The notes below the pieces were generated by a model. That model ran no database searches, was not told the origin of the DNA, and saw nothing but the letters and a program-made list of their open reading frames with translations. A DNA stretch of 57,820 nt from Vogesella oryzae (GTDB taxonomy: Bacteria > Pseudomonadota > Gammaproteobacteria > Burkholderiales > Chromobacteriaceae), in the NCBI RefSeq assembly GCF_902829295.1, contig NZ_CADEPL010000008.1, positions 1 through 57,820 of the forward strand, given 5' to 3'. The translations under genes and the position numbers were made by a program. Shown one piece after another: positions 1-57,820 of this stretch (position 1 is its first letter; the number at the start of each line of letters is the position of its first letter).

Positions 1-61
1 GCCAGCAACCATGGCCACCAGCGCCGCCGCCCCGCCGGCGCTGGTGGCCATGGTTGCTGGC
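1..61. repeat. Perfect 26-bp inverted repeat at the window edge
   Basis: Bases 1-26 are the exact reverse complement of bases 36-61, with a 9-base GC-rich loop between them. The right arm continues into the tamB coding frame, and the codons just upstream of base 54 (Arg-Arg-Trp-Trp-Pro-Trp-like) read as a plausible tamB N-terminus, so the right arm looks genuine and the left arm looks like a fold-back copy. A perfect hairpin at the very end of a sequence is typical of a contig-end artefact, though a real cruciform cannot be excluded. Confidence 0.7.
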
Positions 62-3000
62 GACGCCGCTGCTGCTACTGCTGGCGGCCGCCGCGCTGCT
101 GGTCTGGCTCACTGCCAGCCAGGCCGGTTTTGCCACCCTGTGGCGCTGGGCCGATAGCCTCAGCGGCGGCAGTCTCAAGGTTGGCCGCAGCGAAGGCACG
201 CTGTGGCAGGGCTTCACCCTGCAGCAGCTGTCCTGGCAGCGTGCCGGCACGCGGCTGGACATCAATCGGCTGCAACTGGACTGGCAACCGGCGGCGCTGT
301 GGCGCGGCCAACTGCATATCCAGCGGCTGGCCATCGGCGCGATCCGCTATGCCGGCAAGCCGTCGGCCAAGCCGGTGACGCCGCCGCAGCTGCCGCGCTC
401 GCTGGCGTTGCCGCTGCAACTGCGGTTGGACGAGCTGGCGGTAGACAGCTTCAGCCAGCCGGGGCGGCCGCTGCTGTCGGCATTGCGCGCCAGCTACCGT
501 TACCAGTCTGGCCGCCACCAGTTCACCCTGCGCCAGCTGGATACGCCGTGGGGCGGTGCCACCGTCGGCTTTACCGTGCTGGATAGCGCGCCGTTCCGGC
601 TGGCCGGGCAGCTGCGCTACCAGGGCGAGCTGGAGGGCGTGGCCGCGCGCGGCGAGCTGGCATTGGCCGGGTCGCTGCAGCAGCCGCATGTCTCCGGCGA
701 CATCACTGCGCAGGGGCTGCTGTTCAAGCTCGATAGCGAGTGGCGGCCGTTTGCCGCGGTGCCGTTGCAGCGGCTGCGCCGGCTGGAAGCGCGCGTCGGC
801 GGCGTCAATCCGCAGGCGCTGCTGCCGGGGCTGCCACAGGCGCGGCTGGCGCTGGCGGTCAGCGCCGAGCCGCTGGATGCCGACTCGGTACAGGGCGGCA
901 TCTCGCTGCTCAACAGCGAGCCGGGGCCGGCATCGGCGCAGCGCATTCCGTTATCGCTGCTGTGGGGCGAATTCCGTATCGATGGCGATACCCTGCACCT
1001 GCCCGGCTTGCGGGCGCAGCTGGCCGGCGGCGAGCTGACCATCAGCGGCAGCGCCGCGGCCGACGCGCTGGCACTGGACGCGGTGCTGCACCACATCGAC
1101 AGCCGCCAGCTGTATGCCTCGCTGCCGGCGCAGCTGATCGACGGCGAGCTGCATGCCGCCGGCCGCGCGCGCCAGCCGCAACTGCGGGTCAAGCTGGACA
1201 GCGGCGAGCTGGGGCTGGATGGCCGCCTGCGGCTGGCCGAGGCACCGCGGCGGCTGGAAGTGGCGGAACTGGCACTGCGCACCGGCCTCGGCCGCCTGCA
1301 GGGCGAAGGCAGCTGGCTGTTCGAGCGCCGGCAGCTGGTCTTTGCCGGCAAGCTGCAGGGCTTCGATCCGGCCAGGGTCGATCCACGTTGGCCGCACGGC
1401 AATATCAATGGCGCGCTGGACAGCCGGGCCGATCTGGCCGCCACGCCGCAGGGCGAGCTGGCGCTGAAACTGGCGGCCAGCCAGCTCGGCGGTGCGCCGC
1501 TGGGCGGCCAGTTCCGCCTGCAGTGGCAGCCGCAGCGCATCAGCCAGCTGCTGGCCGACCTGACACTGGGGCGCAACCGGCTGCAGGCCAGCGGCGCCTA
1601 CGGCCATGCCGGCGACACCCTGGCGTTGCAGCTGGCGGCACCGCAGCTGTCGCTGCTGGGGCCGGCCTTCGGCGGCGAGCTGAACGCCAGCCTGCAACTG
1701 GCCGGTACGCCGGCGCGGCCGGACATCAGCGCCAAACTGGCGGCGCAGGCACTGCGGCTGCCCGGCGGCTTCAGCATTGGCAGCCTGCAGGGCGAGGGTA
1801 GCAGCGGTCTGCAGCAGGACAGCCCGTTCCGTGTGCAGTTGAGCGGCCGCGAGTTGCAGGCCGCCGGCCAGCGGCTGGACAGCCTGCAGCTGCAGGCCAG
1901 CGGCAACCGTGCCGCGCACCAGCTGCAACTGGATGCCCGCGGCCAACTGCAGGGCCAGCCGCAAACGCTGACGCTGGCGTTGGCGGGCGGGCTGGCGCCG
2001 CAAACCCTGCGCTGGCAGGGGCGGATCAGCAGCCTGCAGGCCGGTGGTGCGCTGCCGTTGCGGCTGGAGGCGCCGGCGACATTGCAGCTGGCCGCCGATA
2101 GCGTGACGCTGGGCGCCAGCCGCTGGCAGGCGCTGGGCACGCAGTGGCAACTGGCCGACAGCGGCTGGCAGCGCGGCAGCGGCTGGCACAGTAGCGGCCG
2201 GGTAAACAGCCTGGCGCTGGCGGCGCTGGCGCCGTGGTGGCAGCTACCGCTGCAGCAGGATCTGGTGCTGGCCGCCGACTGGGCGCTGGCCGGGCAGCAA
2301 GGTTGGCCGCAGGGCCATCTCAATCTGCGCCGCGAGCGCGGCGATGTGCAGCTGCCGCAGCAGGGGCGCAGCCCGCTGGCGCTGGGCCTGAGCCGCGCCG
2401 AACTGCAGCTGGGCCTGGGGCCGGCGGCGCCGCTGCGGCTGCAGCTGGACAGCCGTTTCGGTCGCGTCAGCGGCGAGGGCACCTTGCAGTTGCCGGCCAG
2501 CGGTCCGCTGGACGCGGCGCAGCTTGCCGCCCGCGTGCAGCTGGCCTTGCCGACGCTGGCGGCGTTCCGGCCGTGGCTGGGTAATGGCTACGATGTGGAT
2601 GGTGCGCTGGATGCCGACGTGCGGCTGTCCGGCCCGCTGCTGGCGCCGCTGTATAACGGCGACATCCGCGGCCAGAAACTGCGTTTTAGCGAGCGCAAGA
2701 ACGGCATCCGGCTGGAAGACGGCGTGCTGGCGGCGCGGCTGCAACAGCGCACGCTGCTGCTGGACAAGCTGAGCTTCGGCAAGCAGGGCGAATTGCAGGC
2801 CAGCGGCAGCCTGGCGCTGGACGGCGACCAGCCGGGCGCCGCCGTCAATCTCAAGCTGGCACGCTTCGCGCTGATCGAGCGCCCGGGGCGCCGTCTCAGC
2901 GTGTCCGGCAACAGCCGCATCACGCTGGAGCAGGGCAAGGTGTTCCTGCGCGGCGAGCTGGCGGTGGATCAGGCGCGCATGGAGCTGCCCAAGCTGGGCG

Positions 3001-3779: not shown

Positions 3780-3797
3780 ACCGCTCGCAGACAAAGA

Positions 3798-3860: not shown

Positions 3861-6800
3861 TCAGGCCAGCGCCTGCTGCGCCGCCACCAGTGCCGCCGCT
3901 TCCGGCAGCGGCAGCGGCTTGCCGGTGAGGTAGCCCTGTACCGTGTCGCAGCCCATCGCCAGCAGCGCGGCGAATTCCGCCTCGGTTTCCACCCCTTCGG
4001 CCAGTGCCTCCATGCCCAGGCTGCGAGCCAGGGTGATGATGGCCAGCACGATGGCGGCATTGTCGCGGCGGGTCGGCAGCTCGGTGACGAAGCAGCGGTC
4101 GATCTTCACCGTGTCAGGGGCAAAGTTTTTCAGGTAGGCCAGACTGGAGTAGCCGGTGCCGAAGTCGTCTACCGCCAGCCGTACTCCCAGCTGTTTCAGC
4201 TGCTGCAGCGTTTCCTGCACCACCCCGGTTTTTTCCAGCAGCGCGTTTTCGGTGACCTCGATCTCCAGCTGTGCCGGCGGCAGGCCGCAATCGTGCAGGA
4301 TGCGGCCAACCTCGCCGGCAAAGCCCGGCTGCGCCAGTTGCCGCGGCGAGGCATTGACGGCGATGGTCAGTGGCGCGGCGCCGTCACGTGGCCAGGCGGC
4401 GGCGATATTGCACGCCTCGCGCATGACCCATAGCCCGATGTCGACGATCAGGCCGGAGTCTTCCGCCACCGGGATGAACTCGGTGGGTGGCGTGCTGCGC
4501 CCGTCGCGGTCGGTCCAGCGCAGCAGCGCCTCGAAGCCGGTGAGGCGGCGGTTGGCCATGTGGAATTTCGGTTGCAAGGCCAGGTGCAGCTCGCCGTGGC
4601 CCAGCGCCTGCCGCAGGCGGCTTTCCAGCAGCAGCCGCTGGTTGGCTTCCTGTGTCATCTGCAGGGTAAAGAAGCGGAAGCTGTTGCGGCCGCTGGCCTT
4701 GGCGTCATACATCGCCATGTCGGCGTTCTTCAGCAGCAGCTCGGCGCCGTGGCCGTCGTCCGGATAGATGGCGATGCCGATGCTGGCGCTGATCACCAGC
4801 TGCTGGCCGCCGAGCGAGAACGGCGCCTGCAGTGCTTCCAGAATGCGCTCGGCCACGCTGGCGGCCTGGGCGCTGTCGGTCAGCTCCGGCAGGATGATCA
4901 CGAACTCGTCGCCGCCGGTGCGGCCAACGGTGTCCATGTCGCGCAGCTCGCCACGGGTGCGCTGCGCCACTGCCTTGAGCAGCGCATCGCCGGTGGCATG
5001 GCCCAGCGAGTCATTGATGTTCTTGAAGCGGTCGAGATCCATGAACAGCACCGCCACCTTGTGGCTGGCGCGCTGGGCGATGTGCAGCGATTGCTGCAGA
5101 CGGTCGGCCAGCAGCAGGCGGTTGGGCAGGTCGGTCAGGTAGTCGTATTCCGCCAGGTGCTGCACCCGCGCTTCGGCTTCCTTGCGCTCGCTGATGTCGG
5201 CAAACAGCGCCACGTAGTGGGTGAGCTGGCCGTGCTCGTCGCGCAGCGCGCTGATGGTCAGCCACTCCGGATACACCTCGCCGTTCTTGCGGCGGTTCCA
5301 CACCTCGCCGCTCCACTGGCCGCGGGCGCGCAGGTGATTCCACATGTCCTCGTAGAACTGCTGGTTGTGGCGGCCGGAAGACAGTAGCGACGGGCTGCGG
5401 TCCAGCACTTCGGCCTCGGTGTAGCCGGTAATGGTGCTGAAGGCGCGGTTGACGGCCACGATGCGGCTGGCGGCATCGGTGATCAGGATCGCCTCGGTAC
5501 TGGCCTCGAATACCTTGGCCGCCAGCCGCAGCTCATGCTGTTGCGCCACGCGGGCACTGATGTCGCGCGCGGTGGCGCACTGGTAGCGCTCGCCGCCAAA
5601 GCTGATGCCGGAGTACTGCACTTCGACGGTGAGGCTGCCCTGGCGGCTGTCCAGTACCAGTTCCAGCTGCCGGCCGTCCTCGGCGGCGGCCACAAACAGC
5701 TGTTCCAGTGCCGCGGCATTGGGCGGCGCGAAGCAGTCGCGGGCGCGCTGGTTCTGGTACACCACGTGGCCGCGCGCGTCGCGCAGCACGATGATGTCGG
5801 CGGCGCTGTCGTTCATGTGGCGGGTCAGTTCGATGTCGCGGGCGCCGGCTTCCAGCTGGCGTTGCTTTTCTTCCAGTTGCTGGCGGTATTCGTTGGCCAG
5901 CCGCCGCAGCCAGCGCGAGTAGTACAGCGAGAACAGCAGGGCCAGCAGCAAGGTGGCGGCAAAGATGGCGCTGGTGGCGATGATGCGGTTACGCATGGTG
6001 GCGGCCAGCAGGCCGGCATCGCTGTAGCTGTAGCTGCTGGTCAGTTGCTCGGTGGGGGCGATCGCCAGGATGCGCCAGCCCCATTGCGGCATCTCGCTGA
6101 GGTAGGCGGTGTAGGCGACGCGGCGCGCGCCTTCCTGTTGCACGAAGCTGAACACGCTACCAGAAACGGCTGTGGTGGCCAGTGCCTGCAGCTGGTTGTT
6201 GCCGTCCGGTGGCGGCAGGCTGCCGTCGAACGCCAGCAGGCTCTTGCCCTGGTGATTGAAGACACTGAAGCCGCTGCGGCTGCCCAGGATGTGCTGTTTG
6301 GCCAGCAGCGCCAGCCCTTGCCGTTGCAGGTCGGCCTCGACGTTGGGCACGTACTCGCCGCCGCCGATCAGCCAGCGGTAGGGAGCGAAGTAGCGGGCAT
6401 AGGCGATTTTCTCGGCCATGACCGACTCGTCCGGGCGGAACCAGCGGTAGCTGGTAAAGCCGGCCTGCTGCGGACCGCTGACGGCGTGGATCAGCGCACG
6501 CATGATGTAGGTGCCCTGGTCGTCGCGGTTGTCGAGCAGCGACGAGCCTTCGCGTTCCGGCGCAGTCGGCAGCAGCAGGCAGTCGCCGTTCATGCTGTCG
6601 ATAAAGAAATAGCCGCGGCCCTCGAAGTAGCGCAGCGGCCGCAGCGATTCGATGATGTCGCGCTGGATGTGCTCCGGCGGGTGGCTGCCCTTCTGCCGCT
6701 GGTATAGCGCGGTCGCCAGCGCGTAGGCGCTATCGACCTGCTCGCGGATGCGCTGCCGCAGCAGCTGCTGGGTCTGGCCGTGCAGGCCTTGCAGCAGCAC

Positions 6801-7109: not shown

Positions 7110-7116
7110 CCGCGCC

Positions 7117-7654: not shown

Positions 7655-8683
7655 ATGCAAATCGGCCCCTACCAGCTCAAGAACCGCCTGATCGTGGCCC
7701 CGATGGCGGGCGTCACCGACCGGCCGTTCCGCATGCTGTGCAAGCAGATGGGCGCCGGGATGGCGGTATCGGAAATGATCACCGCCAACAAGGCGTTGTG
7801 GACCACGCCCAAGACCTTGCGCCGTGCCAATCACGAAGGCGAGGTAGAGCCGATCGTGGTGCAAATCGCCGGCGGCGAGCCGCAGATGCTGGCCGATGCC
7901 GCGCGGCTGAACGTGGAACACGGCGCGCAGATCATCGACATCAATATGGGCTGCCCGGCGAAGAAGGTGTGCAATGTGGCCGCCGGTTCGGCGCTGCTGC
8001 GCGATCTCGCCAACGTTGGCCGCATCCTCGAGCAGGTGGTGAAGGCAGTGGATGTGCCGGTGACGCTGAAGACCCGCACCGGCTGGAGTAGCGAAGTGAA
8101 GACCGCGCTGCAGGTGGCGCGCATGGCGGAGGATGCCGGCATTGCCGCCCTCGCGCTGCACGGCCGCACCCGCGAGGACATGTACCGCGGTGCCGCCGAG
8201 TACGACACCATCGCCGCGGTGAAGCAGGCGATCAGCATTCCGGTGGTGGCCAACGGCGACATCGACAGCCCGCAAAAAGCCAAGTACGTGCTGGAGTACA
8301 CCGGCGCCGACGCCATCATGATCGGCCGTGCCGCCCAGGGCCGGCCGTGGATCTTCCGCGAAATCCAGCATTACCTGGACAGCGGCGAGCTGTTGCCGCC
8401 GCCGCGCATCGCCGAGATCGCGGTGGTGATGCAGGCCCACCTTACCGAGCTGTACGACTTCTACGGCGAATACAGCGGCTGCCGCATCGCGCGCAAACAT
8501 ATCGCCTGGTATACCAAAGGGCTGCGCGGCAGCAATGACTTCCGCCAGGCAATGTACAAGCTGGAAAGCACCGCCGAGCAGCAAGTGGCGGTGGCAGATT
8601 ACTTTACCTGGCTGGCGGAGCATTCCGAACGGCTGGAATACCTGGCAGACAGCGTGGCCGAGGCCGACGCGGTGGCCGATTGA
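7655..8683 (+). CDS. dusB: tRNA-dihydrouridine synthase B
   Basis: FMN-dependent enzyme that reduces specific uridines to dihydrouridine in tRNA. The 342-residue TIM-barrel protein shows the opening APMAGVTDRPFR, the catalytic-cysteine segment NMGCPAKKVCN (Cys100), HGRTRED for substrate/FMN contacts, and the phosphate-binding GADAIMIGRAAQGRPW. It is followed after 24 bases by fis, the classic proteobacterial dusB-fis operon, which supports the B subtype over A or C. Confidence 0.95.
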   Translation: MQIGPYQLKNRLIVAPMAGVTDRPFRMLCKQMGAGMAVSEMITANKALWTTPKTLRRANHEGEVEPIVVQIAGGEPQMLADAARLNVEHGAQIIDINMGCPAKKVCNVAAGSALLRDLANVGRILEQVVKAVDVPVTLKTRTGWSSEVKTALQVARMAEDAGIAALALHGRTREDMYRGAAEYDTIAAVKQAISIPVVANGDIDSPQKAKYVLEYTGADAIMIGRAAQGRPWIFREIQHYLDSGELLPPPRIAEIAVVMQAHLTELYDFYGEYSGCRIARKHIAWYTKGLRGSNDFRQAMYKLESTAEQQVAVADYFTWLAEHSERLEYLADSVAEADAVAD

Positions 8684-10735: not shown

Positions 10736-10766
10736 AAAGGTTGGCCGCATGCGGCCAACCTTTGTT
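10736..10766. terminator. Perfect DUS-like palindrome acting as purH terminator
   Basis: Bases 10736-10763 form a 28-base perfect palindrome made of two back-to-back AAGGTTGGCCGCA words (10737-10749 and its complement 10750-10762). It lies 11 bases past the purH stop and ends in TTTG. As an RNA stem it has almost no loop, so it may also be a duplex protein-binding site. Confidence 0.7.
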
Positions 10767-11564: not shown

Positions 11565-12842
11565 ATGAAAATCCTGGTAATCGGTTCCGGCGGCCGTGAA
11601 CACGCGCTGGCCTGGCGCATTGCGCAATCCCGCCGCGTGTCCAAGGTGTTTGTGGCGCCCGGCAATGCCGGTACCCAGCTGGACCCGAACCTGACCAATG
11701 TGCCCATTACCGCCATTGCCGAACTGGTCGAGTTTGCCCGCGCCGAGAAAGTGGAGCTGACCGTGGTCGGCCCCGAGGCACCGCTGGCTGCCGGCGTGGT
11801 GGATGCCTTCCGCGCCGCCGGGCTGAAAATCTTCGGCCCGACGCAATACTGCGCGCAGCTGGAAAGCTCCAAGGACTTTGCCAAGGCCTTCATGCAGCGC
11901 CACGGCATTCCCACCGCTGGCTACGAGACCTTCACCGATGCCGCTGCAGCCCACGACTACGTTGGCCGCAAGGGCGCGCCGATCGTGATCAAGGCCGACG
12001 GCCTGGCTGCCGGCAAGGGCGTGGTAGTGGCGATGACGCTGGACGAAGCGCATGCCGCCATCGACGACATGCTGGTCGGCAACAAGATGGGCGATGCCGG
12101 CGCGCGCGTGGTGATCGAGGACTTCCTGCAAGGCGAGGAAGCCAGCTTCATCGTGATGGTGGATGGCGAGCACGTGCTGGCGATGGCCACCAGCCAGGAC
12201 CACAAGCGGCTGAAAGACGGCGACCAGGGCCCCAACACCGGCGGCATGGGCGCTTACAGCCCGGCACCGGTGGTGACGCCGGAAATCCACGCCCGCGTGA
12301 TGCGCGAGATCATCCTGCCCACCGTGCGCGGCATGAAGGCCGATGGCCATGCCTACACCGGCTTCCTGTACGCCGGCCTGATGATCGATGCCGACGGCAA
12401 CCCGTTCACCATCGAATTCAACTGCCGCTTCGGCGACCCGGAAACCCAGCCGATCATGGCACGCTTGAAGTCCGACTTCACCGTGCTGCTGGAGGCCGGC
12501 GTCAACTGCAGCCTCGACAAGGTGGAAGCGGAGTGGGACCGCCGCGTGGCGATGGGTGTGGTGCTGGCCGCCGACGGCTATCCGGAAGCGCCGCGCAAGG
12601 GCGACCTGATCAGCAATATCCCGGCCGCTACCGAAGAAACCATGACCTTCCATGCCGGCTCCAGCTTCGATGCCGCCGGCCAGCTGGTGACCAGCGGCGG
12701 CCGTGTACTGTGTGTGGTGGGGCTGGGTGACAGCGTGCGCATGGCACAGCAGAAAGCCTATGCCGTGGCCGACCAGATCGAGTTTGCCGGCAAGCAGCTG
12801 CGCCGCGATATCGGCAACCGCGCCATCGGCCGCCAGAAGTAA
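11565..12842 (+). CDS. purD: Phosphoribosylamine-glycine ligase
   Basis: ATP-grasp enzyme of purine synthesis joining phosphoribosylamine and glycine to form GAR. The 425 residues begin with the family hallmark KILVIGSGGREHALAW and include KADGLAAGKGV (ATP binding), DHKRLKDGDQGPNTGGMGAY and EFNCRFGDPETQ (metal and active-site residues). GGAG sits a suitable distance before the ATG. It shares the purine pathway with purH upstream, though pagP separates them. Confidence 0.97.
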   Translation: MKILVIGSGGREHALAWRIAQSRRVSKVFVAPGNAGTQLDPNLTNVPITAIAELVEFARAEKVELTVVGPEAPLAAGVVDAFRAAGLKIFGPTQYCAQLESSKDFAKAFMQRHGIPTAGYETFTDAAAAHDYVGRKGAPIVIKADGLAAGKGVVVAMTLDEAHAAIDDMLVGNKMGDAGARVVIEDFLQGEEASFIVMVDGEHVLAMATSQDHKRLKDGDQGPNTGGMGAYSPAPVVTPEIHARVMREIILPTVRGMKADGHAYTGFLYAGLMIDADGNPFTIEFNCRFGDPETQPIMARLKSDFTVLLEAGVNCSLDKVEAEWDRRVAMGVVLAADGYPEAPRKGDLISNIPAATEETMTFHAGSSFDAAGQLVTSGGRVLCVVGLGDSVRMAQQKAYAVADQIEFAGKQLRRDIGNRAIGRQK

Positions 12843-15093: not shown

Positions 15094-15666
15094 GTGAGAA
15101 AACTTTTGCCGCAACTACCGCGCGCTGCCGCGCTGCATACTGCCCGTGCCCGTTTCCGTCATGGCGGGGTGCTGGCCTACGCCACCGAGTCCTGCTTCGG
15201 CCTGGGTTGTGACCCGTTCAATGTGCATGCCATCCGCCGCATCCTCGCCATCAAGGCCCGTCCCAACCACAAGGGGCTGATCGTGATTGCGGCCAACCTG
15301 GCGCAATTGCGGCCGCTGATCCGGCCGTTGACGCCGGCGCAGCTGGCGGTGGTCAACCAGTACTGGCCCGGGCCGTATACCTTCCTGCTGCCGGCCTCGC
15401 GCCGGGTGCCGCACCTGCTGCGCGGCCGCCACGACAAAATCGCGGTGCGCATCACCGGCCACGGCCCGGCTGCCGCGCTGTGCCAGGCGCTAGGCTCGCC
15501 GCTGGTGTCCACCTCGGCCAACCGCGCCGGGCAGAAATCGCTGCGTACCGCCCGCGCCTGTCGCATCGCGTTCGGCGAGCGCGTCCACACCTTGTCCGGA
15601 CGCATCGGCAAACGCCGCAAACCTTCTACCATCATCGACCTGGATAGCGGCCGCGTGCTGCGTTGA
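15094..15666 (+). CDS. tsaC: L-threonylcarbamoyladenylate synthase, TsaC/YrdC type
   Basis: Makes threonylcarbamoyl-AMP for the t6A37 modification of tRNAs that read ANN codons. The YrdC/Sua5 fold is clear: GGVLAYATESCFGLGCDP, KARPNHKGLIVIAANL (matching the KRRPxxKGLI signature), WPGPYTFLLPA, and PLVSTSANRAG near the end. About 190 residues fits TsaC rather than the longer Sua5 form. Two starts are possible, TTG at 15073 and GTG at 15094; neither has a strong ribosome-binding site and I prefer the GTG on length. Confidence 0.88.
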   Translation: MRKLLPQLPRAAALHTARARFRHGGVLAYATESCFGLGCDPFNVHAIRRILAIKARPNHKGLIVIAANLAQLRPLIRPLTPAQLAVVNQYWPGPYTFLLPASRRVPHLLRGRHDKIAVRITGHGPAAALCQALGSPLVSTSANRAGQKSLRTARACRIAFGERVHTLSGRIGKRRKPSTIIDLDSGRVLR

Positions 15667-18366: not shown

Positions 18367-18379
18367 TGCGGCCAACCTT
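18367..18379 (-). repeat. DUS-like word in the gap between convergent genes
   Basis: Exact AAGGTTGGCCGCA on the minus strand, between the YiiX-like gene and the chemotaxis receptor. It is not part of a full inverted pair. Confidence 0.75.
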
Positions 18380-18390: not shown

Positions 18391-20001
18391 TCAGATGCGG
18401 AAGCGGTTGACCGCCACGCGCAGCGATTCGGCGCGGCGGTAGATGTCCTCCACCTGCTGCACCGCGTTGTCGGCGGCAGACAGCGCGTCTTCCACCACCC
18501 CCGCCACCTGCTCCACGCTGCCGGCAATGCTGGTGCCGGCCTTGCTCTGCTCCGACATCGCCAGCGCCACCGCGCGGATGCGCTGCAGCGAGTCGTGGGC
18601 CCGCTCGTTGATGCTGCCCAGCGCCTGCGATGCTTCCTGCACCTGCTCCACCCCCAGCGCCACCGACGGCGAGATGGCCTGCACATGCTCGGTCACGCTG
18701 CCGGTTTCCGCCACCACCGCCTGCACGATGCTGGAAATTTCGTCGGTGGCCAGCGCGGTGCGCTCGGCCAGCTTGCGTACTTCGTCGGCCACCACGGCAA
18801 AACCGCGGCCGGTTTCGCCAGCACGCGCCGCCTCGATCGCCGCGTTCAGTGCCAGCAGATTGGTCTGGTTGGCGATGTCGCGGATGGTCTCGGCAATGCC
18901 GCTGATGTTGCGGGTGCGCTCGGACAGCGATGCCACCAGGCCGTTGACCTCGCCCACCTGGCCGGAAATCTGCCGGATGCTGCCCATCGCCTGCCCGGTC
19001 AGGCCGACGCCGCTGGTCGCCTGCTCGGCGGTCTGCTGCGCATCGCTCTCGGTTTCGCGTGCGCTGGCGGTAACGTGATCGATGCTGACCGACAGTTGCT
19101 CGATGGCCGCGGCAGCGGAGGAGGTGGACTCGCTGGCGCTGTGCGACACCGCCCGCAGGTGCGACATCTGGCCCTGCAGCGCCTCGCCGGCATCGGCAAT
19201 CTGTTCACTGTCGTCACGAATCTGCTTGATGATGTGCGCCAGGCCGGCCTGCATCTGCTGCATGCTGCCCAGCACGCTGTTGGCCGGGCCGCGTACTTCC
19301 AGTTGCTGCGTCAGGTCGCCTTCGGCAATGCGGCCAACCACGCTGGCGGCGTAGGCCGGATCGCCACCCAGCGAGCGCAGGATGCTGCGCGCCATGAACT
19401 GCGCCAGCACCCCGACCACCACCACGCCCAGCACCGCCAGCAGCAGCATGGTGCGCGCCTCGTGCCAGAATACGGTGTCGATGTCATCGACGAAGAAGCC
19501 GGTGCCGATCACCCAGCCCCACGGCTGCACCCGCACCACGCCATTGAGCTTGAGTAGCTCCTCGTTGCCGCCGGGGCGGGCGGCGGTGATATACACCATG
19601 CCGTACGGCTGCGCTTTCAGCGCGTCTTCGTAGACCTGCACCGAGGTACGACCGTCCGGCGTCTTGCCACCGTCATCGACCTTGCCAATACGCTCGGCCT
19701 TGGGATGCAGCAGCATCACGTTGCCGCTGTCGCGGGCAAAGAAGTACATCTCGTCATTGCGGATCATGCCCAGCGTCTTGAGCGCCTGCTGTTTGGCATC
19801 CGCTTCCGGCAGCTTGCCGTCCTGCGCCAGCTTCACCTGCTGCGCCACCACGTGCTCCGCCACCTTCAGCAGGTTGGTGATCTGCAGTTCCTTTTCATTG
19901 ACCAGCGTGCGGTGAATGGCATGCAGGGCAAAGCCGCCCAGCAGCACCAAGCCCAGCAGGCTGGCGGCAATCAGCACCAGCAAACGTGTCGAAAGCTTCA
20001 T
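18391..20001 (-). CDS. Methyl-accepting chemotaxis protein with periplasmic Cache domain
   Basis: Chemoreceptor of 536 residues that feeds the CheA/CheW pathway. It has a membrane segment at about 7-29, a single-Cache sensor domain (about 35-185; [33 protein letters not shown]), a second membrane segment (about 186-208), a HAMP linker and a long coiled-coil signalling domain whose hairpin tip [20 protein letters not shown] is perfectly conserved. Single-Cache domains of this kind often bind small carboxylates, but the ligand cannot be read from sequence. There is no C-terminal CheR/CheB pentapeptide. Its start faces the damaged-looking edd region. Confidence 0.95.
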
Positions 20002-20606: not shown

Positions 20607-20619
20607 AAGGTTGGCCGCA
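20607..20619 (+). repeat. DUS-like word between edd and eda
   Basis: Exact AAGGTTGGCCGCA, 21 bases after the edd stop. Confidence 0.75.
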
Positions 20620-22372: not shown

Positions 22373-22387
22373 AAGGTTGGCCGCATG
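22373..22387 (+). promoter_or_regulatory. DUS-like word that forms the ribosome-binding site and start of the kinase gene
   Basis: The exact word AAGGTTGGCCGCA is followed by TG, so its final A is the A of the ATG at 22385. AAGG, eight bases before the ATG, is the only Shine-Dalgarno-like sequence available. Confidence 0.65.
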
Positions 22388-25497: not shown

Positions 25498-26397
25498 ATG
25501 TCTGCCTCCGCTAATCAAGGCCTGCGTGCGCTGGCCGACCGCTGGCTGCCCAAGCTGGTGCTGTCGCCAACGCTGGCTGCCAGCCTGATCTTCGTCTACG
25601 GCTTCATTGCCTGGACTGGCTGGCTTTCCTTTACCGAATCCCGCCTGATGCCCCGTTTTGAATGGGCCGGCTTTGTGCAATACCAGGCGCTGTTTGAAAA
25701 CGAGCGCTGGTGGACGGCTGCGGCCAACCTCGGCATCTTCGGCAGCCTGTTCATCGTCTGCTGTCTGGTGGTCGGCCTGCTGATGGCCATCCTGCTGGAC
25801 CAGAAAATCCGCGCCGAAGGCGCGCTGCGCACCATCTACCTGTACCCGATGGCGCTGTCGTTCATCGTCACCGGTACGGCCTGGAAATGGATGCTGAATC
25901 CGGACATGGGCCTGCAGAAGGTGATGAACGACCTGGGCTTTGCCAATTTCACCTTCGACTGGCTGGTGAACCCGGACATGTCGATCTACACCGTGGTGAT
26001 TGCCGGTGTGTGGCAAAGCTCCGGCTTCGTGATGGCGCTGTTCCTGGCCGGCCTGCGCGGTATCGATGATTCCATCATCAAGGCGGCGCAGGTGGATGGC
26101 GCCAGCCTGCCCACCATCTACCGCCGCATTCTGATCCCCAGCCTGCGCCCGGTGTTTTTCAGCGTGCTGCTGATCCTGTCGCACATCGCCATCAAGAGCT
26201 TCGACCTGGTGATGGCGCTGACCGGCGGCGGCCCCGGCAATTCGTCCGACGTACCGGCGATCTTCATGTACCAGTTCGCCTTTACCCGCGGCCAGCTGGG
26301 CCAGGGTGCCGCCTCCGCGATGATGATGCTGTTCACCATCGTCGCCGTGCTGGTACCGCTGATGTACATGGAAACAAGGAGTGCCAAACGTGTTTAA
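25498..26397 (+). CDS. gtsB: Sugar ABC transporter permease, first subunit
   Basis: A 299-residue inner-membrane permease of the MalF-like family with six predicted membrane segments. The cytoplasmic coupling (EAA) loop reads KAAQVDGASLPTIYRRILIPSL. The ATG at 25498 is preceded by AAGGAA at the right distance; an in-frame start 11 codons earlier lacks that. It overlaps the next permease gene by eight bases. Confidence 0.93.
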   Translation: MSASANQGLRALADRWLPKLVLSPTLAASLIFVYGFIAWTGWLSFTESRLMPRFEWAGFVQYQALFENERWWTAAANLGIFGSLFIVCCLVVGLLMAILLDQKIRAEGALRTIYLYPMALSFIVTGTAWKWMLNPDMGLQKVMNDLGFANFTFDWLVNPDMSIYTVVIAGVWQSSGFVMALFLAGLRGIDDSIIKAAQVDGASLPTIYRRILIPSLRPVFFSVLLILSHIAIKSFDLVMALTGGGPGNSSDVPAIFMYQFAFTRGQLGQGAASAMMMLFTIVAVLVPLMYMETRSAKRV

Positions 26398-30267: not shown

Positions 30268-30298
30268 CAAGGCCCCGCCATGGCGGGGCCTTGTTGTT
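30268..30298. terminator. Bidirectional palindromic terminator
   Basis: Bases 30268-30293 are a 26-base perfect palindrome centred on CCATGG, followed by TTGTT on the plus strand. It lies between the convergent HDOD and exoribonuclease genes. Confidence 0.75.
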
Positions 30299-30316
30299 GC
30301 GGCCAACGTTGGCCGC
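30298..30316. repeat. Head-to-head DUS-like variant pair
   Basis: GCGGCCAACGTTGGCCGC at 30299-30316 is an 18-base perfect palindrome built from the CGTTGGCCGC variant of the recurrent word, just outside the terminator of the exoribonuclease gene. Confidence 0.6.
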
Positions 30317-34935: not shown

Positions 34936-35718
34936 TTAGAAGTTGTACTTCAGCGTGGAGATGAAGGCGTTCTGGTAGGTGGCAGAACCCAGCTTCTGGT
35001 CGGCGTAGCGGTAAGTCAGGCCGGCGGTTACCGACTTGGTGGCGTTCCACCACAGCGATACCGCGCCGTTGTTGGCCAGTTTGCGGGCGCGGACCACGTC
35101 GCCATCCTTGGCCATGGCCAGGTAGGCGTCTTCGCGGGCGAATTCGGTTTCGTGCCACTGGGTGACCATCATCGCCTGGCCCGCCAGGTTGAAGCTGTAG
35201 CCCAGCACCCAGCCAGCCATCATGCCGTTGCGGTGGGCGCCGACGCCCTGCTTGAACTCCTGGTGTGCGCCGAGGAACGGCTTGATCCAGAAGTTGCCGC
35301 GGGACAGCGCGGTGCCCAGACCCAGTACGCGGTTCTGGTCGTAGAAGTCGGCGTCGCGGAAGTCGTAGACATGGGCGTACACCTGTACCGGCAGATCGCC
35401 GATGCGGCCAACGTTGAAACGACCTACCAGCTTGGAGGCGTAGCGGCGGTTCTGGCCGGCGGCTTCATGCGTGCTCTTGTCCGGGTTTTCGATATCGAGG
35501 AAACCGTACAGGTCGCCCCAGTTGCCGCCCATGCCGCCTTCGGCTTCCAGGTAGCCGAAATCGTTCTTGCCGCCGAACGGGCCTTTTTGCGTGCGCTGCT
35601 GGGTGCCATTGGACCAGTCCAGCCAGTTGGCGCTGACATTGCTGAAGGAGTAGTCGGCGTGGGCAAAGCCGGCACAGGAGGCCAGTGCCAGGGCGAGCAG
35701 GGTAGTGCGAGTGTTCAT
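34936..35718 (-). CDS. Tsx/OmpK-like nucleoside-specific outer-membrane channel
   Basis: A 260-residue outer-membrane beta-barrel with a signal peptide (cleavage near FAHA-DYSF, residue 22). The opening SFSNVSANWLDWSNGTQ and later FGGKNDFGYLEAEG, LYGFLDIENPDK and the terminal TLKYNF with final Phe are typical of the Tsx/OmpK family, which passes nucleosides. The ATG at 35718 begins the signal peptide. Upstream on the minus strand are a TATGCT -10 (35818-35823) and a 15-base inverted repeat GTTTGT-N3-ACAAAC (35773-35787) inside the leader. Confidence 0.87.
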   Translation of the reverse strand: MNTRTTLLALALASCAGFAHADYSFSNVSANWLDWSNGTQQRTQKGPFGGKNDFGYLEAEGGMGGNWGDLYGFLDIENPDKSTHEAAGQNRRYASKLVGRFNVGRIGDLPVQVYAHVYDFRDADFYDQNRVLGLGTALSRGNFWIKPFLGAHQEFKQGVGAHRNGMMAGWVLGYSFNLAGQAMMVTQWHETEFAREDAYLAMAKDGDVVRARKLANNGAVSLWWNATKSVTAGLTYRYADQKLGSATYQNAFISTLKYNF

Positions 35719-36244: not shown

Positions 36245-36894
36245 CAGCCGTAGCGGCGGTCGGCCACGAACGGGTTGCTGCGGCGCTCGTCGCCGATGGT
36301 GGTGAACGGGCCGTGGCCCGGCACCACCGTCATGTCGTCCGGCAGCGCGAACAGCTTGTTGCGGATGGCGTCGATCAGCTGCTGGTGGTTGCCCATCGGA
36401 AAATCGGTACGGCCGATGGAGCCCTGGAACAGCACGTCGCCGACCACGCACAGGTTGGCCGCACGGCTGACAAATACGATATGGCCCGGGGTGTGGCCGG
36501 GGCAGTGCAGCACCTCCAGCACCTCGCGGCCAACCTGCACCGTGTCGCCTTCTTCCAGCCAGCGCTCCGGCGTCAGCGCCGGGCTGGGGGCAAAGCCGAA
36601 CATCTGCCCCTGCTGCGGCAGCTGGTCCAGCCAGAAACTTTCCGCGCGCTGCGGGCCTTCGATCTGCACCCCCAGCGCATCGGCCAGCGCCCGCGCGCCG
36701 CCGGCGTGGTCGATATGGCCGTGGGTAAGCAGCAGCTTGGTCACCTGCAGGCCCTTGGCGTCGATAAAGGCGCGGATGCGGGCGATATCGCCGCCGGCGT
36801 CCACCACCGCCGCTTCGTTGCTGACATCGCACCACAGCACGGAACAGTTCTGCTGGAACGGGGTGACCGGAATGACGTGAAGCTGCAAGGCCAT
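36244..36894 (-). CDS. Metallo-beta-lactamase-fold hydrolase (YcbL/glyoxalase II-like)
   Basis: A 216-residue hydrolase. The zinc motif THGHIDHAGG (His58, His60, Asp62, His63) is complete, with HCPGHTPGHI, VGDVLFQGSIGRTDFP and VVPGHGPFT supplying the other ligands. The short length without a C-terminal domain places it with YcbL-type glyoxalase II-like proteins, which act on thioesters such as S-lactoylglutathione, but activity is unproved here. Confidence 0.88.
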   Translation of the reverse strand: MALQLHVIPVTPFQQNCSVLWCDVSNEAAVVDAGGDIARIRAFIDAKGLQVTKLLLTHGHIDHAGGARALADALGVQIEGPQRAESFWLDQLPQQGQMFGFAPSPALTPERWLEEGDTVQVGREVLEVLHCPGHTPGHIVFVSRAANLCVVGDVLFQGSIGRTDFPMGNHQQLIDAIRNKLFALPDDMTVVPGHGPFTTIGDERRSNPFVADRRYG

Positions 36895-39907: not shown

Positions 39908-39945
39908 GTATCGCGAAGCCCGGCGTTTACCTCGAATGAATAAAA

Positions 39946-39990
39946 AAGGTTGGCCGCAAGCCATGAGCAGCTTGCGGCCAACCTTTTTGC
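39946..39990. terminator. Bidirectional terminator from an exact DUS-like inverted pair
   Basis: AAGGTTGGCCGCA (39946-39958) and its complement (39973-39985) form a stem extended to about 16 bp by the flanking AG/CT and A/T bases, with A6 before and T5 after. It ends the dsdA transcript on the minus strand and any plus-strand message from the island. Confidence 0.85.
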
Positions 39991-41595: not shown

Positions 41596-41629
41596 AAGGT
41601 TGGCCGCAAGACATGCGGCCAACGTTTTG
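41596..41629. terminator. Terminator from a DUS-like inverted pair
   Basis: AAGGTTGGCCGCA (41596-41608) faces TGCGGCCAACGTT (41614-41626), with one mismatch at the G/C position near the base, loop AGACA. It lies in the gap between the GIY-YIG gene and the upstream PLP-enzyme gene on the minus strand. Confidence 0.7.
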
Positions 41630-43470: not shown

Positions 43471-43483
43471 ATGGTTGGCCGCA
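43471..43483 (+). repeat. DUS-like word (ATGGTTGGCCGCA) upstream of the PEBP gene
   Basis: Eleven of the 13 bases match (second A and first G differ from AAGG as ATGG). It is unpaired and intergenic. Confidence 0.6.
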
Positions 43484-44401: not shown

Positions 44402-44430
44402 AAGTTTGGCCGCATTGCTGCGGCCAACGT
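44402..44430. terminator. DUS-like inverted pair after pdxH
   Basis: AAGTTTGGCCGCA (44402-44414) and TGCGGCCAACGT (44419-44430) form a short-loop stem with small mismatches. It lies 20 bases beyond the pdxH stop on the minus strand. Confidence 0.5.
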
Positions 44431-45206: not shown

Positions 45207-46460
45207 ATGCAGCTGGTTGCCATCGGTCTCAATCACCACACCGCTCCGCTTGCCATCCGCGAGCGTCTGGCCTTTCCGGCCGAGACGTTGTCGGCAGCGC
45301 TGGCGCAGCTGGTGGAGTCGCATGCCGCGCGCGAGGTCACCATCGTTTCCACCTGTAACCGCACCGAGCTGTACTGTGCCACCGCGCAGCCGGAGCAGGT
45401 GCTGCGCTGGCTGGTGGGTTACCACGGCATGGCGCTGGACGAGGTGGCGCCGTACCTGTACCAGCTGGATGCCGCCGAAACCGCGCGCCACGCTTTCCGC
45501 GTCGCCTCCGGGCTGGACTCGATGGTGCTGGGCGAGACGCAGATCCTCGGCCAGATCAAGGACGCGGTACGCAATGCCGAGCGCGCCGGCACCATGGGCA
45601 GCCTGCTCAACGGCCTGTTCCAGAAAACCTTTGCCGTGGCCAAGGATGTACGTAGCCAGACCGCGGTGGGCGCCAGCTCGGTATCGATGGCCGCCGCCGG
45701 GGTAAAACTGGCGGAGCAGATTTTTGCCTCGGTGGGCGAGCTGAATGTGCTGTTCATCGGCGCCGGCGAGATGATCGAGCTGGTGGCGACGCACTTTGCC
45801 GCCCGCCAGCCGCAGAAAATCACCGTCGCCAACCGCACACTGGAGCGCGGCCAACGGCTGGCTGCCGAGTTCGGCGGTAACGCGATCACCCTGTCCGAGC
45901 TGCCGGATCAGCTGCAGCACTACGACGTGGTGGTCAGCTCCACCGCCAGCCAGCTGCCGATCATCGGCAAGGGCATGGTGGAGCGCGCGATCAAGGCGCG
46001 CCGCCACCGCCCGATGTTCATGCTCGACCTGGCGGTGCCGCGCGATATCGAGGCCGAGGTTGGCCGCATGGACGACGTCTACCTGTACACCGTCGACGAC
46101 ATCGCCAGCATCGTGGAAGTGGGCCAGCAGGCGCGCAACCAGGCGGCCGAAGAGGCCGAGACCATCATCAACCACCGTGTGGTGGAGTTCGTCGACTGGC
46201 TCAAGCGCCGCGAGTCGGTGCCGCTGATCCGCGCGCTGCGCGACGAATCGGAACGTATCCGCCGTCACGCGCTGGACGCTGCGCTGAAGCAGCTGTCGCG
46301 TGGCGACGCCCCCGAAAAAGTGCTGGAAGCGTTGTCGCTGCAGCTCACCAACAAACTGATGCACCCGCCGACGCAGGCGCTGTCTACCGGCAGCGGCGCG
46401 GCGCACGATGCGCAGGTCGAACTGATCGCGCGTCTGTATCGCTTACACCCGGAGCAGTAA
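45207..46460 (+). CDS. hemA: Glutamyl-tRNA reductase
   Basis: First step of tetrapyrrole synthesis by the C5 route: reduces glutamyl-tRNA to glutamate-1-semialdehyde with NADPH. The 417 residues have the catalytic Cys50 in [27 protein letters not shown], the NADPH loop VLFIGAGEM and the C-terminal dimerisation helices. The ATG at 45207 gives the standard [14 protein letters not shown] start. It overlaps prfA by one base (TAATG), a common hemA-prfA arrangement. Confidence 0.97.
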
Positions 46461-47540: not shown

Positions 47541-47606
47541 TGCGGCCAACGTTGGCCGCAGAGGCAAACGACAAGGGCAAGCCGATGGCTTGCCCTTGTC
47601 GTTTGC
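47541..47606. terminator. DUS-like palindrome followed by a 20-bp perfect hairpin after prfA
   Basis: Bases 47541-47560 are a 20-base palindrome of two TTGGCCGCA words head to head. Directly after it, 47564-47583 pairs perfectly with 47587-47606 around the loop GAT, a 20-bp stem. No T run follows on either side. It lies between convergent genes and probably ends or protects both transcripts. Confidence 0.65.
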
Positions 47607-49839: not shown

Positions 49840-50559
49840 TCAAGTGTGACGAAAATGGGCCTTGGCCAGCACCCATGCTTCTACCCGTTTTGCCCCTGCT
49901 TTTTTCAGGGTTTTGGACAGGGCATGCAAGGTGGCGCCGGTGCTTGCCACGTCATCGACAATGGCAATGAAAAGACCGTCACAGCGGTGTTTTACGCCGA
50001 AGGCATCACGCAGGTTGGCCAGCCGTTCGGTACGGTCGAGGCCGGCCTGCGGCACGGTGTTGCGTTTGCGCCAACACAGATCGCGAGCCAGTGGCGCGCG
50101 CATTGTAACAGCCAGGGCGTCGGCCAGTGCATCCGGCAGATTAAAGCCGCGGGCGGCCAACCTGGCGGCCGCCAGTGGCACCGGAATGATGAGGTCGGGC
50201 ACAGGCAGTGCCGGATGGCGTTGTAACAGCGTTCGCATCAGCCCGGCCAACGCGCCTTGCAGCGCCGGCTGCGGCCCGTATTTGCAACGCGCGATCAGGC
50301 CATCGAGCGGGTAATCGTAGTCGTAGGCGGCCAGCAGGCGGTCAAAGGCCGGCCGCAGTTGCTGGCAGTCGCCGCAGGGGGCGTGGCCGCTGTTGACCTG
50401 GGCATGGCATTGCGGACAGCGCGCGGTGATCTGATAAGGCAGGGCCGGCAGGCAGCACTGGCACACGCCGTGCGGTGCCGGACGTTGGCCGCAGAACTGG
50501 CAGTGCTGTTCAAATAATGAACAGCTGTCAACAAGGTGGCCAAGCAGGTTTGACAGCAT
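49840..50559 (-). CDS. comF: ComF-family phosphoribosyltransferase-like protein
   Basis: A 239-residue protein of the ComF/GntX family, implicated in DNA uptake for natural transformation. The N-terminal zinc-binding region has paired cysteines (CQFCGQRP, CQCC, CPQCHAQVNSGHAPCGDC), and the C-terminal part carries the PRPP loop IAIVDDVASTGAT. It is divergent from bioB with only 43 bases between the starts. Given the uptake-sequence-like word in this window, its presence is relevant. Confidence 0.93.
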   Translation of the reverse strand: MLSNLLGHLVDSCSLFEQHCQFCGQRPAPHGVCQCCLPALPYQITARCPQCHAQVNSGHAPCGDCQQLRPAFDRLLAAYDYDYPLDGLIARCKYGPQPALQGALAGLMRTLLQRHPALPVPDLIIPVPLAAARLAARGFNLPDALADALAVTMRAPLARDLCWRKRNTVPQAGLDRTERLANLRDAFGVKHRCDGLFIAIVDDVASTGATLHALSKTLKKAGAKRVEAWVLAKAHFRHT

Positions 50560-51702: not shown

Positions 51703-51717
51703 AAGGTTGGCCGCATG
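51703..51717 (+). promoter_or_regulatory. DUS-like word that forms the ribosome-binding site and start of bioF
   Basis: Exact AAGGTTGGCCGCA followed by TG: its last A begins the bioF ATG at 51715. GAAAGG, partly in the word, is the only Shine-Dalgarno-like sequence before the gene. Confidence 0.65.
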
Positions 51718-52866
51718 CGTCCCGACGAAATCGATTCCGCCCTGGGCGAGCTGGCTACCGAGCACCGCCTACGCCGCCGTCCCACGCTGGCTTCGCCACA
51801 GGGGCCGCGGGTGACGATCGACGGCTGCGACTATCTGGCATTTGCCAGCAACGATTACCTCGGGCTGGCCAATCATCCGGCGCTGCGGCAGGCGATGCAG
51901 CAGGGCATAGACGACTGGGGCGTCGGCGGCGGGGCGTCGGCGCTGGTGGCCGGGCATTTCGCCATCCAGCAACAGGCGGAGGAAGCGCTGGCGGCATTTG
52001 TCGGCTGCGAGTCCGCGCTGCTGTTCGGTTCCGGTTATGCGGCCAACCTCGGCGTGATCACCAGTTTGGTCGGGCGTGGCGATGCGGTGTTTGCCGATCG
52101 CCTCAATCACGCGTCGTTAAACGATGGCTGCCTGCTGTCGCGGGCCGAGTTCAAGCGTTTCCGCCACAACGATCTGGCGCAGCTGGAGCAGCTGTTGCGC
52201 GATACCCCGGCCCGCAGCCGGTTGATCGCGGTGGACGCGGTGTACAGCATGGATGGTGACGAGGCGCCGCTGCGCGACTTACTGCAGCTGGCCGAGCGCT
52301 ACGATGCCTGGCTGTATCTGGATGATGCCCACGGTTTCGGCCTGCTGGGCGATGGGCACGGCGCGTTGCTGGAGTATGCGCTGCACCACCCGCGGGTGGT
52401 GTACATGGCGACGCTGGGTAAAGCCGCCGGCGTGGCGGGGGCGTTCGTGGCCGGCAGCCGCCAGCTGGTCGACTGGCTGGTGAATACGGCGCGCACCTAC
52501 ATCTTTACTACCGCCCATCCGCCGGCGCAGGCCGCTGCGGTTTTGCGCAGTCTGCAGCTGATTGCTGACGAAAAATGGCGTCGTCATTTACTCAATGAGC
52601 ATATATCGGTGCTGCGCAATGGTTTGCGCGCAACTTCTTTATCGTTGTGCTCTTCCCGTGCGCCAATTCAACCGATTATTATTGGCAGCAATAAGGAAGT
52701 CTTGAAGCTGGCAGCAGCACTGCGTGCGCGCGGAATCTGGGTGCCGGCGATCAGACCGCCCACTGTGCCGGCAGGTAGCGCGCGTTTACGCGTATCACTG
52801 ACGGCCGGGCATACACGCGACGACGTGGCAGAGTTGTTAGCCGCATTACTATCTGTAATTAGTTAA
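51715..52866 (+). CDS. bioF: 8-amino-7-oxononanoate synthase
   Basis: PLP enzyme that condenses pimeloyl-ACP or -CoA with alanine in biotin synthesis. The 383 residues show NDYLGLA, GVGGGASALVAGH, DDAHGFGLLG and the PLP lysine in ATLGKAAGVAG (Lys236, the same number as in E. coli). The ATG at 51715 is the start in the family alignment. The last ~100 codons (from about 52560) are visibly lower in GC and use different codons from the first part, which hints at recombination at the 3' end. Confidence 0.96.
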   Translation: MRPDEIDSALGELATEHRLRRRPTLASPQGPRVTIDGCDYLAFASNDYLGLANHPALRQAMQQGIDDWGVGGGASALVAGHFAIQQQAEEALAAFVGCESALLFGSGYAANLGVITSLVGRGDAVFADRLNHASLNDGCLLSRAEFKRFRHNDLAQLEQLLRDTPARSRLIAVDAVYSMDGDEAPLRDLLQLAERYDAWLYLDDAHGFGLLGDGHGALLEYALHHPRVVYMATLGKAAGVAGAFVAGSRQLVDWLVNTARTYIFTTAHPPAQAAAVLRSLQLIADEKWRRHLLNEHISVLRNGLRATSLSLCSSRAPIQPIIIGSNKEVLKLAAALRARGIWVPAIRPPTVPAGSARLRVSLTAGHTRDDVAELLAALLSVIS

Positions 52867-55823: not shown

Positions 55824-55854
55824 TAACCAGACCGGCGTCACAACGCCGTGCCGC

Positions 55855-55889
55855 ACGCCGCCCCGTTGTCATGACCGGGCGGCGTTTTC
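55855..55889 (+). terminator. Terminator after the GGDEF-EAL gene
   Basis: ACGCCGCCC (55855-55863) pairs with GGGCGGCGT (55877-55885), then TTTTCA. Confidence 0.7.
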
Positions 55890-55965
55890 ACGCCCCGGCA
55901 CAACGGCGGGTATCTTTCCGCCGGCAGTATTGCGAAAATGCGCTTTTGCCCCACCTTGTTGTTTC

Positions 55966-56730
55966 ATGAGCCTTTTTATCGAAAGCCACGGCCGTGGTCC
56001 GGATGTGGTACTGCTGCACGGCTGGGGGTTGCACGGCGGCGTGTTCGACCGCATTGCGGCCAACCTTGCCGGCGAATTCTGCGTCCATCTGGTCGACCTG
56101 CCCGGTCACGGCGGCAGCGCCGCCAGCCTCAGTTTCAACCCGGATACCATCGCCAGCCAGCTGGCCGAGCGCTTCCCGCTGCCGGTGCAGGTGGTGGGCT
56201 GGTCGCTGGGCGGGCTGATCGCGCAGCACTGGGCCGCCCGCCATCCTGCCGGCGTCAAGAGTCTGGCGCTGATCGCCACCAGTCCGCGCTTCGTGCGCGA
56301 CGACAGTTGGCCGCATGCGCAGCAACGTGCCGCCATCGAGGGCGTCGGTGCCAGCCTGGACGGCGCCTTCGAGCAGACGCTGGAGCGCTTCCTCGCGCTG
56401 CAGATGCTGGGCGCGCCGGCAGCGCGGCAGACGCTGGCGGCACTGAAAGAGCAGATGTTCGCCCACGGCCGCCCTCAAGGGCTGCTGCCGGCGCTGGATT
56501 GCCTGCTGGCCGCCGATGCGCGGGAACTTGCGCCGCTGATTACCTGTCCTGTAGGGCTGTTCTTTGGCGCCCGCGATGCCATCACCCCGATCGGGGCGGG
56601 TCGCTGGCTGGCCGCAGCGCTGCCGGATGCCACCCTGTACGAATTTGCCCAGGCTTCGCATGCGCCCTTCCTCTCGCACGAGAGCGAATTTCTGCAGCAC
56701 CTGCGCCACCATCTGGAACAACACGCATGA
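55966..56730 (+). CDS. bioH: Pimeloyl-ACP methyl ester carboxylesterase
   Basis: Alpha/beta hydrolase that removes the methyl group BioC added, releasing pimeloyl-ACP for BioF. The 254 residues carry the nucleophile Ser80 in VGWSLGG, the catalytic Asp in FGARDAITP and His in ASHAPFLS. The ATG at 55966 gives the family start; no good ribosome-binding site is visible. It overlaps bioC by four bases (ATGA), confirming the functional pairing. An exact DUS-like word lies at 56055-56067. Confidence 0.94.
   Translation: MSLFIESHGRGPDVVLLHGWGLHGGVFDRIAANLAGEFCVHLVDLPGHGGSAASLSFNPDTIASQLAERFPLPVQVVGWSLGGLIAQHWAARHPAGVKSLALIATSPRFVRDDSWPHAQQRAAIEGVGASLDGAFEQTLERFLALQMLGAPAARQTLAALKEQMFAHGRPQGLLPALDCLLAADARELAPLITCPVGLFFGARDAITPIGAGRWLAAALPDATLYEFAQASHAPFLSHESEFLQHLRHHLEQHA
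56055..56067 (-). repeat. DUS-like word within bioH
   Basis: Exact AAGGTTGGCCGCA on the minus strand, read in bioH as Ile-Ala-Ala-Asn-Leu. Confidence 0.75.
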
Positions 56731-57632: not shown

Positions 57633-57642
57633 TGATTGCCGC

Positions 57643-57820
57643 ATGACTGTTACCCGCCGACTGTTTACCCTTTCCCTGCTGGCCATCCTGGCCGGCTGTG
57701 CCAGCCAGACGCCGCCTCCGCCGGTGGCCAAAGCGGTGCCCAAACCCAAAATCGCGCTGGCGCTGGGTGGCGGTGCCGCCAAGGGCTTTGCCCATGTCGG
57801 CGTGATCCGTGTGCTGGAAC
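57643..57820 (+). CDS. Patatin-like phospholipase lipoprotein (3' end outside window)
   Basis: The first 59 codons of a lipoprotein run off the window end. The signal ends in the lipobox LAGC (Cys18), a proline-rich linker follows, and KIALALGGGAAKGFAHVGV gives the patatin oxyanion loop. The nucleophile GxSxG and the Asp dyad lie beyond the window. It starts 10 bases after the bioC stop. Related lipoproteins belong to the RssA-like patatin group. Confidence 0.85.
   Translation, partial: MTVTRRLFTLSLLAILAGCASQTPPPPVAKAVPKPKIALALGGGAAKGFAHVGVIRVLE

Follow-up and report, generated by a model that had tools for sequence, protein, structure and literature searches.

A high-copy word with a CCG core is a probable DNA uptake sequence of Vogesella, with one-base dialects in related genera

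The window, by which we mean the whole analysed stretch of 57,820 nt, belongs to Vogesella oryzae, a rice-root bacterium that NCBI taxonomy places in the family Chromobacteriaceae, order Neisseriales. It holds many copies of a short word that we regard as a probable DNA uptake sequence (DUS). The 13-mer AAGGTTGGCCGCA occurs 13 times, against none in 100 shuffles; an earlier, sequence-only reading of this DNA had given the same number and positions. Exact matches lie on the plus strand at 177..189, 2299..2311, 20607..20619, 22373..22385, 28381..28393 and 51703..51715 and on the minus strand at 18367..18379 and 56055..56067. The other 13-mers are arms of inverted pairs. Those at 10737..10749 (plus) and 10750..10762 (minus) form the pair 10737-10762 after purH, identified by match, folding and the loci of relatives. 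By match and folding, 39946..39958 (plus) and 39973..39985 (minus) are the left and right arms of the terminator-like hairpin 39943-39988, and 41596..41608 (plus) is the left arm of the hairpin 41599-41623.

The 11-mer GGTTGGCCGCA has 22 copies in the window (shuffle mean 0.08). Besides the 13-mers, exact matches were located on the plus strand at 31149..31159, 36453..36463, 43473..43483 and 46058..46068, and on the minus strand at 4301..4311, 15288..15298, 19329..19339, 25719..25729 and 52038..52048. The claim of at least 22 copies thus held in number; one site given as 36462 actually starts at 36453, two others were one base off, and the five minus-strand sites had been listed without a strand. 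At 15288 the 10-mer is intact in all 11 aligning relatives. The sister form CGTTGGCCGCA, estimated earlier at about ten copies, gave 12 in a pattern count. Its matches are at 1386..1396, 8014..8024, 11960..11970 and 50483..50493 on the plus strand and at 4919..4929, 30298..30308, 31099..31109 and 35403..35413 on the minus strand; alignment shows the 10-mer at 8014 intact in 12 of 12 relatives. Folding places the minus-strand copy at 41614..41624 in the right arm of the hairpin 41599-41623, and that at 44419..44429 (minus) overlaps the hairpin 44406-44427. The copies at 47541..47551 (minus) and 47550..47560 (plus) are the left and right halves of the palindrome TGCGGCCAACGTTGGCCGCA, whose RNA fold is not unusual (z -0.4).

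Measured against an order-3 Markov background, the leading k-mer in the window was, for every k between 7 and 14, part of this word or a one-base extension of it. The same was found with an order-4 background for k = 8 to 12 in a sample of 437,045 bp from the same genome; the earlier reading had proposed a count of this type for the complete genome. As a positive control, the same word count ranked GCCGTCTGAA first (19 copies) in a 15-kb locus of Neisseria iguanae. The consensus is A(-2) G(-1) G T T G G C C G C A(+10), and the full word of Vogesella is written here as AG-GTTGGCCGCA; the GCA word is also written AGGTTGGCCGCA. Positions -2, -1 and +10 are preferences only, and the remaining motif positions are nearly strict: one-base variants at the eight core positions sum to 9 across 24 neighbours, against 112 perfect 12-mers. 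Weak preferences aside, information content is near background beyond about -4 to +10. The preferences persist at 241 single sites within genes (A 51% at -2, G 45% at -1, A 54% at +10) and are therefore no by-product of terminators. The two bases after GTTGGCCG are CA 258, CC 71 and CG 65 times in V. oryzae (L142-L161) and CA 282, CC 13 and CG 8 times in the complete relative G059 (L190-L209); position +10 seems relaxed in V. oryzae relative to G059.

The assembly of V. oryzae L3B39T (58 contigs, 3,415,129 bp; PMC7862949) contains 1,141 copies of GGTTGGCCGCA, 543 and 598 on the two strands, and no copy of the reversed control. The abundance therefore stays above background in the genome at large, and the earlier claims of a high-copy word in both orientations without strong strand bias hold genome-wide. 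The suggested comparison with related genomes was made on 61 genomes of the family (genomes labelled G0xx; genera other than Vogesella, g2-g10). All 13 Vogesella genomes carry 1,141-1,510 copies at near-equal strands, whereas the 48 genomes of nine other genera carry only 1-22 (reversed control 0-9). In 40-kb samples of ten genomes covering these nine genera, five genera showed related words and the other four did not. The GAA dialect GTTGGCCGAA reaches 183-2,168 copies in eight genomes of five genera: G010 (g2) 1,368; G036 579 and G037 2,168 (g6); G038 (g7) 1,245; G045 (g9) 1,851; and G046 1,104, G047 183 and G048 893 (g10). It is found 77 and 78 times in the two g5 genomes and 8-62 times in the remaining 51. 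The GAG dialect GTTGGCCGAG has 1,940 copies in G034 and 1,590 in G035, both g5, and at most 165 elsewhere. Any of the three words is present in quantity in 23 of the 61 genomes; the 38 without comprise 19/19 of g3, 4/4 of g4, 9/10 of g2 and 6/6 of g8. Within g2, the other nine genomes have 11-36 copies of GTTGGCCGAA against the 1,368 of G010, a pattern of word loss or gain within one genus. A metagenome-assembled genome (MAG) labelled Pseudogulbenkiania has five GTTGGCCG words at one locus, each followed by A.

Genes were called by codon usage (353 genes, coding fraction 0.776) and are under-called, so intergenic figures are approximate. Noncoding enrichment is 2.5-3.0 fold for the 11- to 13-mer and 1.4-2.4 fold for looser forms, and inside genes the word occupies all six frames. 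In 437 kb of V. oryzae, the 9-mer GTTGGCCGC has 466 sites (strands 236/230) with 51 inverted neighbour pairs within 50 bp and 1 tandem pair; 24 pairs of any kind are expected at random. The inverted pairs are 19 convergent and 32 divergent, 19 of the divergent ones being the exact palindrome. Forty of the 102 paired sites lie in gaps between convergent genes, none in gaps between divergent genes and 12 within called genes, and 364 of the 466 sites are unpaired, 242 of them in called genes. Frames, gap enrichment and inverted pairing had all been described from the window by eye. G059 has 28 inverted and no tandem pairs among 304 sites, and pairing was seen in part in the g5 samples (7 inverted and no tandem pairs among 52 sites). 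Folding of four pairs gave three strong hairpins (z -4.9, -7.1, -2.9), and the window holds long hairpins with T tails. In the gap after purH, the inverted pair is found in 11 of 13 Vogesella loci; it is absent in G059 and has one broken arm in G058. At both loci of g10 this gap holds a single complete GAA word together with a partial inverted arm.

The 10-mer is missing from 13 of 171 five-kb bins taken from V. oryzae and G059, and all 13 have a low GC (0.40-0.55). None of the 152 bins with GC rounding to at least 0.60 lacks it, and at GC 0.55 it is contained in 6 of 14 bins. Gene content was inspected in three low-GC stretches of two genomes, chosen for being empty; these word-free stretches carry BREX (bacteriophage exclusion), Tn7-like transposition and surface-polysaccharide genes. 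Judged by these three stretches and by the GC bins, the word is scarce in recently acquired DNA. One stretch without the 10-mer (L193, G059:C1:615001-635000) encodes BREX-type genes (BrxL, PglZ and BrxC domains) and a YqaJ-type recombinase; another word-free one (L197, G059:C1:1435001-1455000) encodes a Tn7-like TnsD/TniQ protein, a CoiA-nuclease-like protein and a Beta-protein family gene.

Conservation was examined for 15 sites in window 1-22000 in 12 relatives, giving 180 cells, of which 68 were unaligned and 11 contained indels. Of the 101 cells aligned without gaps, 59 retained the 10-mer; among control 10-mers, 4,518 of 22,685 (0.199) were retained. The indels (11 of 112 aligned cells) fall mostly at the purH pair, and several sites show gap-free substitutions among relatives. 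Dialect change in place was followed at one 20-kb locus, where two of three inspected aligned sites show it. The dusB site (window 8116-8137) reads GTTGGCCGAA in G037, G010, G048, G045 and G038 and GTTGGCCGAG in G034 and G035; it agrees with the genome's own dialect in 7 of 9 GAA/GAG genomes and is one or two bases off in G036 and G046, as it is off in the Pseudogulbenkiania MAG. None of six word-free rows (G002, G017, G033, G039, Crenobacter, Chitinimonas) has the word there, and Vogesella uses another codon. At window 4919, GTTGGCCGCA stands in 10 of 12 aligned Vogesella and GTTGGCCGAA, its own dialect, in G038, with the amino acids unchanged.

To our knowledge, self-recognition words for DNA uptake are established in two families, and Chromobacteriaceae are not known for them. 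The DUS of Neisseriaceae resemble the present word in being 10-12 bp long, in thousands of copies and divided into dialects. In the 12-mer register, AG prefix included, AGGTTGGCCGAA agrees at 9 of 12 positions with mucDUS, AGGTCGTCTGAA, of N. mucosa and N. sicca (dialect letters: PMC3868556, PMC12061091), and C at +9 of the Vogesella word is also found in king3DUS. All eight described dialects have CTG at +6 to +8 and A at +10 (PMC3630211). Among the Chromobacteriaceae words, the GAA and GCA forms share this A and the GAG form lacks it; all three are kept out of the Neisseriaceae dialect set because they read CCG for the defining CTG. The earlier statement that a CTG core is lacking was thus correct, but the word cannot be called wholly unrelated: its forms agree with one of four compared dialects at 8-9 of 12 positions. 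Per 20,000 shuffles, 164 matched the four dialects as well as AGGTTGGCCGAA, 1,040 as well as the GCA form and 768 as well as the GAG form. Common descent with the Neisseriaceae DUS is suggested by these letters, not proven. The uptake signal sequences (USS) of Pasteurellaceae are likewise high-copy uptake words also found in terminators, but belong to another family and have unrelated letters, AAGTGCGGT (PMC13020248); their receptor is a predicted one (ComN/PpdA; PMC12616744). For five genomes (Laribacter, Lutiella, Pseudogulbenkiania and two Chromobacterium) a 2013 survey reported no obvious DUS (PMC3630211). Our literature search, with preprints and most subscription papers outside it, found no report joining Vogesella or GTTGGCCG with 'uptake sequence'. 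Combining the family's genera with DUS terms found none either, and among the matches listed for short strings of the word none was uptake-related.

We think it very likely that AG-GTTGGCCGCA is the DUS of the genus Vogesella, read by a type IV pilus-linked receptor, that GTTGGCCGAA and GTTGGCCGAG are dialects of sister genera, and that the inverted pairs were, as it seems, co-opted as transcription terminators in Vogesella. What we computed directly is how abundant and widespread the word is, its near balance between strands, where it lies, how far the genus conserves it, its dialects and its scarcity in low-GC islands; uptake, the receptor and competence of the organism we infer. As known uptake sequences do, the word is over-represented on both strands in hundreds to thousands of copies and has dialects in related genera. 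Gap enrichment with inverted pairs at gene ends characterises Vogesella and partly g5, not the samples of the GAA genera. An uptake sequence had been proposed by the sequence-only reading; the testable signatures in Vogesella agree with it, and genus-wide conservation and one-base dialects go further. The predicted receptor would bind the word in double-stranded DNA, DNA of close relatives would be taken up preferentially via the word, and repeated uptake and recombination would maintain perfect copies throughout the genome. The sister genera would use their own dialects in the same way. The reading of these words as a branch of uptake sequences with a CCG core, divided into dialects, in Chromobacteriaceae is very probably right in kind.

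Several observations weigh against this interpretation. The Chromobacteriaceae words differ from the Neisseriaceae DUS in reading CCG for CTG (C, not T, at +7) and in G at +5. In the small samples of the five GAA genera only 1 inverted pair was found among 141 sites, and partial inverted copies clearly exceed direct ones only in g10 (6 vs 0); in this scarcity of pairs the likeness to known uptake sequences is incomplete. The fourth folded pair gives no hairpin (z -0.4). There is a weak leading-strand excess: in 20 stretches of 20 kb from G059 the 11-mer lies 89 times on the locally G-rich strand and 61 times on the other. The third inspected site has GTTGGCCGA- in Vogesella and is probably protein-driven, because near-words also occur in word-free genera, and sharing of sites across genera is low at the one tested locus. 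The comEC gene is present in V. oryzae and in 59 of 61 family genomes and is therefore not discriminating. Two pilin searches over the family genomes found no pilin that tracks the word, and the PF16732 match of V. oryzae is a PilE-like gene in a minor-pilin operon. Judged by title and the opening of the abstract, neither of two papers found to mention Vogesella and natural transformation seemed relevant, and V. indigofera, of which a strain deleted for the pigment synthase is published (PMC12826045), has been manipulated by conjugation.

A profile search at E 0.05 detected eight pilin-type genes in V. oryzae, seven over the cut-off. Searches of solved structures with the pilins returned PilE/PilA-type chains or nothing, with no chain named ComP among the matches. 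As for ComP, the DUS-binding minor pilin of Neisseria, PF16732 (ComP_DUS) proteins occur in 61 of 61 family genomes (60 over the cut-off), but with or without the word. The domain match was rejected as evidence; no ortholog in that role was identified, and the look-up of a ComP-like minor pilin proposed earlier did not yield the receptor. The pilin C9:93005 was rejected as receptor, its presence not tracking the word: copies of 54-65% identity are found in G059, G055, G058, G060, G057, G050, G056, G049, G035, G034, G038 and G045, weaker or partial ones in the word-bearing G051-G054, G036, G037, G046-G048 and G010, and full-length copies of 45-54% in word-free g2 and g3 genomes. The earlier remark that comF lies in the window holds loosely: the gene at 49843..50559 (minus) encodes a member of the GntX/ComF family, whose two matches (E 1e-38 and 2e-27) fall under the curated cut-offs, and is context only.

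Among the alternatives, the least improbable, though unlikely, is a site for a nucleoid, replication or regulatory protein, or a methylation-linked word, in either case without a role in uptake. HIP1 is such a methylation-linked word of cyanobacteria. A strict core would fit any protein-binding site, receptor and uptake are inferred, and with pairs nearly lacking in the GAA genera the parallel with terminators is weaker in them. However, the word is not a palindrome, its 12-mer aligns with AG-DUS words and it is scarce in low-GC islands; terminator pairs together with one-base dialects are the pattern described for uptake sequences (PMC13020248, PMC3630211).

Two further alternatives have very little in their favour. 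The word might be a polar signal read by a recombination or translocation motor, of the type of Chi or the FtsK-orienting polar sequences (KOPS). High copy number and the excess on the G-rich strand of G059, seen also for the 9-mer (170 vs 134), would suit such a signal, but Chi and KOPS are strongly polar and this bias is small; the inverted pairing at gene ends, the change of the word by one base from one close genus to another and its scarcity in low-GC islands also speak against such a signal. No more probable is a family of intrinsic terminators only, with the word as preferred stem sequence. It would account for the 51 inverted pairs, densest between convergent genes, and for the T-tailed hairpins of the window, but not for the 364 unpaired sites, of which the 242 in called genes occupy all frames and both strands, nor for the A at -2, G at -1 and A at +10 favoured at single coding sites; moreover, sister genera with up to 2,168 copies have almost no pairs. 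A dispersed mobile repeat of the repetitive extragenic palindrome or miniature inverted-repeat transposable element type (REP/MITE) is hardly credible despite high copy number and inverted pairs, given the near-background information outside about -4 to +10, the gap-free substitutions that distinguish several sites (even with the indels in 11 of 112 cells) and the islands without the word.

Returning to the uptake sequence, its history was viewed against a tree of one protein, PurH, with 29 rows (five Vogesella loci and G045 left out). In this tree g5 and g6 form one group, separate from the other family members, and G038 falls with Vogesella; the fork of these other members is weak (81/82), and 10 of 26 inner branches are open. 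The simplest reading would be an early GAA word followed by switches to GCA and GAG and several losses. We give an even chance to the wider proposal that DUS predate the split of Neisseriaceae and Chromobacteriaceae. The CCG-core branch would then comprise three dialects or more, of which GAA may be ancestral while GCA belongs to Vogesella and GAG to another genus, and would have been lost in several genera, the CTG core would be a feature of one branch, and the central contacts of the receptor would have changed. If the interpretation is true, a sister family has a second set with a CCG core, in which close genera differ by one-base dialects and some seem to have lost the word. Such a set would be a natural experiment on the origin, shift and loss of uptake specificity and would supply new receptor-word pairs with which to study the reading of DNA by a pilin. 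Manipulation of Vogesella, an environmental, pigmented genus, could become easier if donor DNA carried the word.

Among 399 genomes drawn from the GTDB order, including 13 of the own family, GTTGGCCGAR reaches at least 600 copies only in G010 and G038, both of the own family; outside the family it peaks in G351 (family f10) with 104 copies, against 32 for the control. Within g8, G040 and G043 show a slight excess of GTTGGCCGAA (62 and 45) and GTTGGCCGAG (92 and 85) over controls (11-21), perhaps relics of the word. In G033:C37 (L174-L175), TAGGGAGTAGGG is repeated, with 10 copies in 40 kb.
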